Assembly (NCBI GenBank): GCA_040756475.1
Contig: JBFLZB010000012.1
Location: 15,278 to 48,793 of the forward strand
Direction of reading: 5' to 3'
Length of the DNA: 33,516 nucleotides
From: Thermodesulfobacteriota bacterium
Lineage (GTDB): Bacteria > Desulfobacterota > Deferrisomatia > Deferrisomatales > JACRMM01
Position 1 is the stretch's first letter, and every line of letters begins with the position of its first letter. The position numbers were made by a program, and so were the translations under genes. Positions 142-29,455 of the stretch are shown piece after piece. Below the pieces are notes generated by a model that worked only from the letters and a program-made list of their open reading frames with translations, had not been told where the DNA came from and ran no database searches.

Positions 142-513
142 TCACTCGGGGGGGTGGGCCAGGGCCGCCCGAACCCGCTCCAGGAGCTCTTCGGGCTCCA
201 CGGGCTTGAGCACGAACCCCTGCACGCCCAGCGCCCGGGCGCGGAGCACCGTGGCGTGGTCTCGCTGGGAGGAGAGAACCAGGATCGGGACCCCGCTGCT
301 CTTCCGGCTGGCACGGAAGCGCTGGATGAACTTCAGCCCGTCGAGGTTCGGCATCTGGATGTCGGTGACCACGAGGACGTAGACGTTTCGCAGCGCCAGG
401 CGTACGGCCTCGAGGCCGTCGGCCGCCTCGTGGCAGACGAGTCCCGCCCCTTCGAGAGTGGCGCGCACCATTCGGCGCACCAGGGCGCTGTCGTCCACCA
501 CCAGGACCTGCAC
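142..513 (-). CDS. Single-domain CheY-like response regulator
   Basis: A 123-residue stand-alone receiver domain. It has the acidic pair D7/D8, phosphoacceptor D51 in TDIQMP, the switch serine S81 in LVLSS and the invariant lysine K103 in FVLKP. There is no output domain, so it should act by phosphorylation-dependent protein contact, for example with a chemotaxis-type or kinase partner not encoded alongside. The start is a GTG at 513 preceded by a very good Shine-Dalgarno (AGGAGGA, 5-7 bases upstream). It is divergent from the HD-GYP gene at 949, with a structured repeat in between. An HD-GYP phosphodiesterase as divergent neighbour suggests a signalling link, but that is inference. Confidence 0.92.
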   Translation of the reverse strand: MQVLVVDDSALVRRMVRATLEGAGLVCHEAADGLEAVRLALRNVYVLVVTDIQMPNLDGLKFIQRFRASRKSSGVPILVLSSQRDHATVLRARALGVQGFVLKPVEPEELLERVRAALAHPPE

Positions 514-548: not shown

Positions 549-751
549 GCCACCAAATTCCAACACCAAATTCTTGGGGCGGGTTCCGGGAGTCCTGGCC
601 ATTGGTCAGGGCCCCGTACCGCCTCGACCGAACCTCAGCAGCGAGGCCGAAAGCGGGGGGCTCGGCGCCCCGGCTCCCTCGGCTACGCTGCCTCCGAACA
701 TCGCGGATTGCGGGGCGGAGCGCAAGGGCTCCCGGAACCCGCTTGCCACCG
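549..751 (+). repeat. Dispersed structured repeat, copy 1
   Basis: About 200 bp that recurs at 27836-28031. The core is bounded by an 18-base inverted repeat: 579-596 (GCGGGTTCCGGGAGTCCT) pairs with 725-742, with one G-T wobble. Inside is a 6-bp helix, GCCTCG 621-626 with CGAGGC 642-647, followed by a highly conserved stretch through 724. The left flank is A/T-rich with two AATTTGGTG units on the minus strand. It fills much of the 435-base gap 514-948 between divergent genes. I see no convincing protein in it. It could be a MITE-like element with terminal inverted repeats or a structured RNA/DNA element. Confidence 0.8.
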
Positions 752-807
752 AGGTGGCGGATCGTGGGCCGCCGCTGCCCTCGACGTGGGGGGACGCCGC
801 CGGCCTT

Positions 808-948: not shown

Positions 949-2247
949 GTGATCAAGAAGATTCGCAGCCAAGACCTGGAAGTCGGCATGTTCGTGACCG
1001 ACTTCAACTCGCCCTGGCTCCAGCACCCCTTTCTCACCAACCGCAAGACCCTGCGCAGCCCGCGCGACATCCAGATCGTGCTCGACCAGGCAATCGACGA
1101 AGTCTACATCGACACCGCCCGGGGAAGGGACAGCTCCAAGGCGTACCATCCGGAGGAAGCCGACCAGGTGTTGCGGCAGCGCCTCAAGGAGGAGCTGGCG
1201 GAGGTCGCCGAGCCGGCCACGGGGTCACCCACCCGGCAGGAAGAGGAGATCCCCTTCGAGGAAGAGCTACGCAAGGCAAGGGAAGTGTACGAAGAAGCGC
1301 GGGCTTCTGTGCAGAAGGCCTTCGCGGACGTTCGCCTGGGCAAGGTTCCCGACGGGGAGCAGGCCCGCCAGTCGGTGACGAAGATGATCGAGTCGGCGTT
1401 CCGCAACCGCGACGCCTTGCTGAGCCTTTCGCGGATCAAGAGCTTCGACGACTACACCCTGCACCACTGCCTCAACGTCGGCGTCCTGGCCATTCACCTG
1501 GGGGCTCACCTGGGCATCCTCCACGAGGAGCTCCTGCGGCTGGGAATCGGGGCCATCCTCCACGACCTGGGAAAGGTGCGCCTGCCGCCGGAGCTCGTGA
1601 AGAAGAAGGGCGCCCTCCACCCCAGGGAGTTCGAGCTGATGAAGACCCACGCGGCCCACGGAGCCGACCTGATGCTGCGGTGCCCGACGATCCCCGACGA
1701 GTGCTCCCTGGTGGCCCTCAATCATCACGAGCGCTACGACGGAAGCGGGTACCCGCGCGGGCTCGCCGGGCTCGCGGCGGGCAAGTTCGGCCTCATCGCA
1801 GCCATCGCCGACGTGTACGACGCCATGACCACGGAGCGCGCCTACCGCCGGGGCGTGACTCCCGGCCACGCCCTCAAGCGCGCGTACGAGTGGGCGGGCT
1901 CGCTGCTGCACCCCATCTATGTGCGCAAGTTCATCCAGTGCCTTGGGATCTACCCGGTGGGCTCGGCGGTGCGCCTCGACACGGGCGAGACGGGCGTGGT
2001 CGTGCGCCAGAACCGCGACCAGTTGCTGCGCCCCTGGGTGCGGGTGATGAAGAACTCAGACGGGCGCCCCCTGCCCTACCCGGTGGACCGGGACCTCCGG
2101 GAGACCGGCGAGGCGGGGGACAAGCCCTGCGCCCGGAGCATCGAGCGGGTCCTGGACCCCCGGGACGTGGGCGTCGACCCCGAGCAGGCCCTGGCGCTGC
2201 GGTCGAACGTGGCGGGAAGCGAGCGCCTCCGGGTGGTCCTGGGCTGA
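949..2247 (+). CDS. HD-GYP domain protein with DUF3391 N-terminus (probable cyclic-di-GMP phosphodiesterase)
   Basis: 432 residues from a GTG at 949. The frame is open far upstream (to 121), but that part reads as low-complexity shadow of the receiver gene and the repeat; the GTG has GGGGGAA just upstream and starts the typical sequence IRSQDLEVGMFV of DUF3391 (roughly residues 1-145). The HD-GYP domain spans about 165-350, with HD at H205-D206, the HHE at 259-261 and YDGSGYP at 263-269 (the GYP signature), and IADVYDAMTTERAYR near 286-300. The metal-binding and GYP residues look intact, so it should hydrolyse c-di-GMP. The last ~80 residues are a poorly conserved tail. It ends 9 bases before the convergent DUF554 gene. 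Confidence 0.9.
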   Translation: MIKKIRSQDLEVGMFVTDFNSPWLQHPFLTNRKTLRSPRDIQIVLDQAIDEVYIDTARGRDSSKAYHPEEADQVLRQRLKEELAEVAEPATGSPTRQEEEIPFEEELRKAREVYEEARASVQKAFADVRLGKVPDGEQARQSVTKMIESAFRNRDALLSLSRIKSFDDYTLHHCLNVGVLAIHLGAHLGILHEELLRLGIGAILHDLGKVRLPPELVKKKGALHPREFELMKTHAAHGADLMLRCPTIPDECSLVALNHHERYDGSGYPRGLAGLAAGKFGLIAAIADVYDAMTTERAYRRGVTPGHALKRAYEWAGSLLHPIYVRKFIQCLGIYPVGSAVRLDTGETGVVVRQNRDQLLRPWVRVMKNSDGRPLPYPVDRDLRETGEAGDKPCARSIERVLDPRDVGVDPEQALALRSNVAGSERLRVVLG

Positions 2248-27739: not shown

Positions 27740-27835
27740 GAGCCCTCTTCTTTCCGTGTGCTCCACTGTGGCACGGCAACGGGTCCGCTCTGCCCCCATG
27801 GGCAAGGGTCCCAAATCCACCACCTCTTTTCGGGG

Positions 27836-28031
27836 GTCCAAAATCCACCACCAAATCTTTGAGGCGGGGTCCGGGAGTCCTGGAGCGCAGCCCGGTGCCG
27901 CCTCGACCGAACCGCGGCAGCGAGGCCGAAACCGGTGAGGCTCGGCGCGCCGGATCCCTCGGCTACGCGGCCTCCGAACATCGCGGATTACGGGGCGGAG
28001 CGCAAGGACTCCCGGACCCCGCTTGCCACCC
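27836..28031 (+). repeat. Dispersed structured repeat, copy 2
   Basis: Second copy of the element at 549-751, same orientation, again in a divergent intergenic region (27740-28141). Its end arms are perfectly complementary over 18 bases: 27864-27881 (GCGGGGTCCGGGAGTCCT) with 28005-28022. The internal helix GCCTCG 27900-27905 with CGAGGC 27921-27926 is kept, and the block from GGCTACGC through GGCGGAGCGCAAGG is nearly identical to copy 1. Its A/T-rich left end has further partial units of CCAAATCCACCACC (also just outside, near 27810). No protein is called. Confidence 0.8.
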
Positions 28032-28066
28032 AGGGTCGCGGTAGGGATCCTGGGGGTTGCCCCGCG

Positions 28067-28096
28067 TTGACACGCCGGTCGCCGCCCTTCTACCCT
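28067..28096 (+). promoter_or_regulatory. Candidate sigma-70-type promoter for the TPR gene
   Basis: TTGACA (28067-28072, perfect -35), 18 bases, TACCCT (28091-28096). It lies between repeat copy 2 and the TPR start, giving a leader of about 40 bases with a GGGAGG ribosome site. The spacing is the same as for the promoter at 17033. Confidence 0.5.
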
Positions 28097-28141: not shown

Positions 28142-29455
28142 ATGGCGTTCGGCTGGTTCTCGGGCAAGAAGGACCCGGCGGGCAAGGCACTGGAAAAGGC
28201 CGACCGGCTCGCGGGGCAAGGCCGGTGGGCCGAGGCCCTCTCCTACTACGAAGAAGCCCGGGACGCGGCTTCGGGGTCCGAGCCGGCGCGCAACGGGGTG
28301 CGCGCCTGCCGGGAGCAGCTCGTGGCCTTCAACCTCTCGGAGGCCGCAGCCTACGAGACAGCGGGCGATCCCGGCAAGGCCCGGGAGCACGCCGCCCTGG
28401 CACTGGACCTGGCGGCGGGCGAGGCGGCGCTGGCTTCCCGCGCCCGGCAAGTGCTCGACCGGCTCGAAGGACCCGGGGCTGCGTCCGCTGCGAGCCCGGC
28501 CGCGCCGGGACGCCTCTTCCCTCCCTCCTGCGGGTGCTCCGCACCCTGCGGCCCGGGAGAAGCTGCCGAAGGCGAGGGGGAGGCGCCGGTGGAGGACCTC
28601 TACGGGTTCTACCTGGAGGCCCTGTCCCCGGAAGAGCGCGATGCCTTCGAGGCCCTGGAGGGGGAAGGCGACTTCCCGGAGGGGTTCGTGCTCTTGCAGC
28701 AGGGGGAGACCCGCCTGGCACGCCCCTTGCTTGAGGCCGCCCGGAGCGCGTACCCGACCCAGCCCGGACCCCACTACGCGCTGGGCCTCTTGGCCGCCCT
28801 CGAGAAAGACCCGGAGGCGGCCGGACGCTACTTCGCCCAAGCCCTGGAGGTGGGCCCCGGCTTCTCCCCCGCTGCCCACCACCGGGCCGACGTGCTCCGG
28901 GAGAGCGGCAGCCCGGCCGAGGGCGCCGCGTTCCTGCGCCGGTGGCTCCAGGGGCATCCGGACGACGGCGAGGCCTGGGTGCTCCTGGCCGCCTGCTCCC
29001 TGGAGGCGGGTGACCCCGCTGCCTGCCTGGAGGCATCCGAGGAGGGGGCCCGCCGCATGCCGCCGGCGGACCCCCGGGCGAACCTCCTCAAGGCCCGGGC
29101 CCTCCGCCGGCTCGGCCGCCCCGACCAGGCCCTGGGCGCCCTGCAGGCCGTGGCGGCCCGGCGCCCCGACCTGCTGGAGGCCCTGGTGCCCATCGGAGAC
29201 ATCCTGCTGGAGAAGGGCGGGGCTTCCGCCGAGCGCGCGGCCGAGGTCTTCAAGCGCTGCTACCGCCTGGACCCCGAGCGGGGCTGGGTGTACCGGCTGC
29301 GCCTGGCCCAGGCCTACGCCGCCCGGGGCTGGCCGGCCGAGGCGAAGGACATGCTGGCCGAGGCCCGCGCGGAGCTTCCCGACGCGCCCGAGGCCCGGGA
29401 ACGCTGGGAAGAGGTGCGGCGGATACTGGAGGGAAGCGCCGCCAAGGGGCCTTGA
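28142..29455 (+). CDS. TPR-repeat protein
   Basis: 437 residues, soluble, with no signal peptide. Helical repeats of TPR type run from about 15 to 110 (KALEKADRLAGQGRWAEALS, AAAYETAGDPGKAREHAALA) and again from about 185 to 430 (PGPHYALGLLAALEKDPEAA, RALRRLGRPDQALGALQAVA, AQAYAARGWPAEAKDMLAEA). Between them is a Pro/Gly-rich linker with a small cysteine cluster (CGCSAPC near 130-137). It is a scaffold or assembly protein of unknown partner. ATG 28142 has GGGAGG upstream; the open frame reaches further back only through the repeat element. Confidence 0.85.
   Translation: MAFGWFSGKKDPAGKALEKADRLAGQGRWAEALSYYEEARDAASGSEPARNGVRACREQLVAFNLSEAAAYETAGDPGKAREHAALALDLAAGEAALASRARQVLDRLEGPGAASAASPAAPGRLFPPSCGCSAPCGPGEAAEGEGEAPVEDLYGFYLEALSPEERDAFEALEGEGDFPEGFVLLQQGETRLARPLLEAARSAYPTQPGPHYALGLLAALEKDPEAAGRYFAQALEVGPGFSPAAHHRADVLRESGSPAEGAAFLRRWLQGHPDDGEAWVLLAACSLEAGDPAACLEASEEGARRMPPADPRANLLKARALRRLGRPDQALGALQAVAARRPDLLEALVPIGDILLEKGGASAERAAEVFKRCYRLDPERGWVYRLRLAQAYAARGWPAEAKDMLAEARAELPDAPEARERWEEVRRILEGSAAKGP

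Follow-up and report, generated by a model that had tools for sequence, protein, structure and literature searches.

What kind of element is a structured repeat of about 200 bp whose arms differ between copies in ways that keep them paired? The question is raised by a stretch of 33,516 nucleotides from a Thermodesulfobacteriota bacterium (the window, meaning the whole of the DNA that was analysed), in which such a repeat occurs at two places, and for which a preliminary description had offered three readings: a non-coding RNA, a cruciform-forming regulatory element, or a MITE. The repeat is a MITE, a gene-less, non-autonomous DNA transposon of about 210 bp, and its main feature, which that description missed, is its choice of target, namely a fixed spacing from predicted promoters, a mode of target selection that is both rare and informative.

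Extent, ends and copy number of the element

The two copies in the window, said to share sequence over about 200 bp, are indeed about 86% alike in an alignment that covers the whole element, and the repeat is real but larger than first described, at about 210 bp per copy. The boundaries given initially (549-751 and 27836-28031) enclose the body of the hairpin but leave out the right inverted repeat, and bases 549-552, which they include, are the left target duplication. The individual pairs, T584-A737 in copy 1 as against G27869-C28017 in copy 2, had been read correctly, and the T593-G728 wobble of copy 1 is seen in the sequence. The features around both copies are as follows.

142..513, minus strand: response-regulator receiver gene, left of copy 1 (ORF, Pfam)
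549..552, no strand: left target duplication of copy 1, GCCA, matching its right partner GCCG in 3/4 bases (register-4 family duplication)
553..767, plus strand: element copy 1, 215 bp, right end facing the promoter (family alignment)
577..596, plus strand: left hairpin arm of copy 1 (alignment columns 27-46, helix 2)
725..744, plus strand: right hairpin arm of copy 1 (alignment columns 178-199, helix 2)
768..771, no strand: right target duplication of copy 1, GCCG (sequence and register-4 family duplication)
781..786, plus strand: -35-like box TCGACG of copy 1, at the family spacing of 13, with a weak -10 (offset analysis)
949..2247, plus strand: HD-domain gene (DUF3391 and HD_5), downstream of copy 1 (ORF, Pfam)
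27834..27837, no strand: left target duplication of copy 2, GGGT (sequence and family duplication)
27838..28053, plus strand: element copy 2, 216 bp, with a few extra bases within the right inverted repeat (alignment)
27838..27852, plus strand: left terminal inverted repeat of copy 2, CCAAAATCCACCACC (sequence, family repeat search)
27862..27881, plus strand: left hairpin arm of copy 2 (alignment and structure)
28005..28024, plus strand: right hairpin arm of copy 2 (alignment and structure)
28039..28053, plus strand: right terminal inverted repeat region of copy 2, ending GGATCCTGG, internally altered (sequence, alignment)
28054..28057, no strand: right target duplication of copy 2, GGGT, perfect (sequence and family duplication)
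28067..28072, plus strand: -35 box TTGACA, 13 bp from the right end of copy 2 (sequence, offset analysis)
28091..28096, plus strand: -10-like box TACCCT of copy 2, spacer 18 (sequence, by eye)
28142..29455, plus strand: TPR-repeat protein gene, downstream of copy 2 and its promoter (ORF, Pfam)

The element is bounded by imperfect terminal inverted repeats (CCAGAATCCACCACC ... GGTGGTGGATCSTGG), and the terminal repeat CCAGRATCCACCACC matches the genome 64 times with at most one mismatch, compared with a single control match. Both inverted-repeat ends are present in each of 52 copies, and they are systematically unlike at positions 4-5, reading CCAGA on the left and CCACG on the right. Immediately outside these ends, a 4-bp target duplication is perfect in 26 of the 52 two-ended copies, where 2000 shuffles give a mean of 0.86 and a maximum of 6; the same copies show no excess of duplications at registers 5-9, with none perfect at registers 8 and 9. 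A mixture fit places a duplication in 84% of copies, with about 11% divergence since insertion, and among copies obtained later, outside this first test, 6 of 12 are perfect (one locus counted once).

Two copies proved a great undercount. In the genome to which the window belongs (G000, 5.0 Mb in 369 contigs), BLAST yields 42 matches for copy 1 and a larger number for copy 2. A motif from the right arm is matched 99 times, eight of which are left arms of the same copies, leaving about 91 right arms against no control matches. Most copies are 207-216 bp long, and the element is thus short, numerous and carries no gene. The genome-wide search with a covariance model, which had been proposed as a check, found none in 38 relatives and returned the own genome only; BLAST of 148 relatives likewise detects the family in the own genome only, two weak matches (L100, L101) resembling chance, in a comparison whose relatives comprise no other species from the genus and whose first-pass searches scored a limited number of candidates per genome. 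The exact motif is absent from GTDB contigs and IMG/VR, the single IMG/VR match to the right-end motif being due to chance, and plasmid records contain no copies.

The terminal inverted repeats, the 4-bp target duplications, the dispersal and a case of tandem re-insertion (see below) together support the MITE among the three readings offered, and the element did not turn out to be part of any known insertion sequence. The location between divergent genes holds in the window but not for the family, whose left neighbours, in those cases for which a simple ORF call gave one, lie on the plus strand in 20 cases and on the minus strand in 18.

Several variants and arrangements were also observed. 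A sub-group with six extra bases (GGCCAT) in the left part and an altered inner arm, GGTCAGGG, occupies at least four loci (L042, L014, L051 and positions 599-604 of the window). An internally deleted element of 95 bp (L069, 3284-3380, minus strand) keeps both ends and has TTGCGC at the promoter spacing of 13. Back-to-back pairs of elements lie between divergent genes at L087 (3247-3605) and L151 (C50:21771 and 21837), where each right end apparently faces its own promoter. A low-complexity repeat of GATTTCGATCTCGAT-like units adjoins several elements (flanks of L058, L069 and L011).

A hairpin probably maintained on one strand

Both window copies fold better than every dinucleotide shuffle of their sequences (z -4.3 and -5.0), and the compensatory changes noted between their arms are general in the family. 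Across 49 copies, 12 of 45 pairs have changed on both sides (shuffled mean 6.0) and 43 cells carry a double change (shuffled mean 14.2), neither value being reached in 500 shuffles. The inner and outer arm helices, which pair in about 97-99% of cells in these copies, contain most of the two-sided changes. An internal GCCTCG/CGAGGC helix, which had been taken as a kept feature, was rejected as characteristic of the family, as both strings occur together in just 17 of the 49 copies.

The departures from Watson-Crick pairing in the main helices are one-sided, with 168 G-U cells against 3 A-C cells. A mutation bias does not explain this asymmetry, since C-to-T and G-to-A events at unpaired sites are equally frequent (71 and 72, respectively). 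The consensus of the complementary strand folds poorly (-31 versus -58 kcal/mol), although individual copies, taken over the full element, fold about as well on the minus strand as on the plus strand. On a tree that is rough for a 210-base element, and with pairs chosen from the plus-strand structure prediction, the internal branches carry 18 changes from Watson-Crick to G-U pairs, without any A-C or other break, and the terminal branches 9 G-U, 4 A-C and 14 other events. When only pairs with a Watson-Crick consensus are counted, G-U outnumbers A-C by 12 to 4 over the whole tree (p 0.08), by 8 to 0 on internal branches, and stands at 4 to 4 on terminal ones. We read this pattern, which depends on the predicted structure and tree, as suggesting that the spreading lineage was selected for a hairpin of the plus strand, as RNA or single-stranded DNA, and that this selection was lost in resident copies. 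The selection on structure proposed earlier is supported for a folded single strand but not for a two-strand cruciform, which would give equal numbers of G-T and A-C mismatches and was rejected on these counts.

A plus-strand hairpin with compensatory changes and a G-U bias would also be expected if the family descended from a conserved non-coding RNA gene or riboregulator that multiplied, its mobility being incidental. That origin is very unlikely: target duplications and inverted repeats are seen across the family, the left neighbours share no common direction of transcription, the spacing is fixed to a promoter that reads away from the element, and the element is seen in one species only. 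Rfam models, moreover, give no match to it, either at the gathering score or up to an E value of 10.

Insertion at a fixed distance from predicted promoters

Apart from one motif, the right flanks of the copies are mutually unrelated. This motif, TTGAC, starts 13 bases from the element and is followed, mostly 17-18 bases beyond, by a -10-like motif, which places the right end 13 bp (the 4 duplicated bases and 9 more) upstream of the -35 box of a predicted sigma70-type promoter; distances of 12 or 14 are less frequent. The mean match to TTGACA peaks at offset 13 alone. When promoters are predicted with a simple sigma70 score, as the best match within the first 50 bases of a flank, the best promoter lies at that offset in 43 of 69 right flanks, as compared with 6 of 71 left flanks and 48 of 2000 random pieces (2.4%), a further seven right flanks having it at 14. 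The spacers of the offset-13 promoters are mostly 17-18, like those of real promoters. In the 20 regions fetched last, many of which hold right-end fragments because the search motif was placed in the right arm, the best match is at 13 in 10 of 18 distinct right ends and at 12 in three. Many of the predicted promoters stand before ordinary host genes, and the downstream genes to which Pfam gave a name include those for IMP dehydrogenase, ribosomal protein L21, a CdaA-like diadenylate cyclase, ResB and a class-II tRNA synthetase.

The arrangement is oriented. Among the 52 two-ended copies, a promoter is found at the right end only in 35, at the left end only in 2 and at both ends in 1, and 14 have no clear promoter at either side; the reverse orientation is rare, though probably real.

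One site has been used twice. At contig C4 of the genome (L160), the order is older element, CCCT, newer element, CCCT, CGTTTCCCC and TTGACG, with nine bases between the second CCCT and TTGACG, and the older copy has diverged. The second element entered precisely at the entry point of the first, and the same target is therefore usable twice. At C50 (L066) a similar junction has a gap of 4 bases, and contig C214 (L007) holds one that is less clean.

A spacing of this kind could in principle be produced by random insertion followed by selection, which would retain copies at harmless or useful sites upstream of promoters, where they might act as an upstream element or insulator. In keeping with this, the arms evolve at about a third of the rate of unpaired interior sites, terminal branches included (0.93 versus 2.69 events per site), and the unpaired sites keep pace with the target duplications, whose rate is 5.5% per site per copy, which hints at constraint after insertion. 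The slow change of the arms could reflect residual function at the insertion site, binding of a protein to the arms, or conversion between copies. Where arms do change on terminal branches, the changes fall at random as regards pairing. Right-end fragments also persist at promoters, but this is expected in any case, since deletions from the right that reach the promoter would harm it. Targeting is favoured over selection because the distance is constant to about one base, the peak at 13 being narrow, with a few copies at 12 and 14 and no second peak one helical turn away in the sigma70 scores of the right flanks; because copies with perfect duplications also have the promoter at the right end (21 of 26); and because one site was used twice. 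Retention after random insertion is accordingly unlikely.

A possible mechanism and relation to known elements

The observations are explained jointly, with a probability of roughly 80%, by a MITE with unlike ends and a 4-bp duplication, which is mobilised in trans by a promoter-guided transposase and needs its plus-strand hairpin in order to spread. The transposase would recognise and pair the two unlike ends and would be guided by promoter-bound RNA polymerase, or read the promoter directly. It would cut just upstream of the position of the alpha-subunit C-terminal domain, which would leave the gene unbroken, and would join the element so that its right end faces the promoter; the bases duplicated would be the four that lie 10-13 bp upstream of the -35 box. 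The hairpin, as a single plus strand (RNA or single-stranded DNA), would be needed by the spreading lineage, for example in a transposition intermediate or a transcript. A more specific proposal, in which a transposon led by RNA polymerase depends on the single-stranded plus hairpin and its transposase lies outside the known promoter-targeting families, is doubtful.

The transposase itself may have been lost, or not been assembled or recognised in the genome. An autonomous partner that shares the ends is common for MITEs, though not a requirement. In the 369-contig assembly, inspection of solitary repeat ends and of the two transposase genes detected, one of ISKra4 type and one Mu/Tn7-like rve gene, turned up no transposase whose ends match those of the element, and PF00872 (Mutator) and PF01609 (DDE_Tnp_1) are absent from the genome. 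The ISKra4-type insertion sequence (L107 on contig C79, about 1110-2767; ends GAGGGAGCATTCGC / GCGAATGCTCCCACC) lies within an apparent DNA modification methylase gene. The Mu/Tn7-like operon (L144 on contig C240, 761-2167 and downstream) comprises an rve transposase carrying a Mu C-terminal domain; behind it come an ORF that by eye resembles an AAA/ExeA-type ATPase and a third ORF.

Elements of the IS1380/piggyBac type have ends that begin with CC and a short duplication of roughly 4 bp; promoter targeting is not known for this family. The element resembles them in its CC ends and its 4-bp duplication. The genome gives no match to the IS1380 transposase (PF13701), for which control genomes give matches.

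Like the Correia, ERIC and QMITE elements, the element is short, gene-less, dispersed and intergenic, has inverted repeats and target duplications and forms a hairpin (PMC10969869). It differs from them in being GC-rich rather than AT-rich, in a promoter precision of nearly one base, in its asymmetric ends and in its strand-biased wobbles, and the part of the review cited here mentions no such promoter spacing.

The closest parallel is offered by the Mutator-like families TnGBS/ISLre2 (p-MULT 3) and ISKra4 (p-MULT 4), the two related transposase lineages to which fixed insertion upstream of bacterial promoters is confined in the literature considered here (PMC3942029). They insert in one orientation upstream of sigmaA promoters, at a distance of 15-17 or 13-17 bp, duplicate 8-9 bp, have repeats of 18-39 bp and encode a transposase, and the way in which they find promoters is proposed, not demonstrated. 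The fixed spacing, taken together with the analogy to that proposal (PMC3942029), suggests that the transposase of the present element may dock on RNA polymerase.

The element shares with these families a right inverted repeat beside a sigmaA-type promoter at a near-fixed distance (13 bp here as against 15-17 or 13-17 bp), unlike ends and a terminal C. The same oriented insertion at a nearly equal distance, and the presence of an ISKra4-type transposase gene in the genome, would suit a MITE derived from one of them. Such a derivation nevertheless carries little probability: the duplication is 4 bp rather than 8-9, the repeats are about 15 bp rather than 18-39, the element has no transposase gene and no transposase recognising its ends was found in the genome, and the resident ISKra4-type copy has other ends and sits in a methyltransferase-like gene. 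A strand-specific hairpin is also not described for these families in the cited portion of that work (PMC3942029). The element works as they do, but the length of its duplication speaks against membership.

If the proposed reading is true, the element is a third case of such insertion, and a transposon that lands at promoters without damage to genes would be a useful tool; its roughly 90 copies, which flag predicted promoters of the genome, offer a ready test set. In this element the midpoint of the duplicated bases is about 11 bp upstream of the -35 box, and the distances published for TnGBS/ISLre2 and ISKra4 (PMC3942029) give the same value by calculation. A shared centre in spite of unequal duplication lengths would point to the polymerase bound at the promoter as the mark, and not to a peculiarity of one family of transposases.
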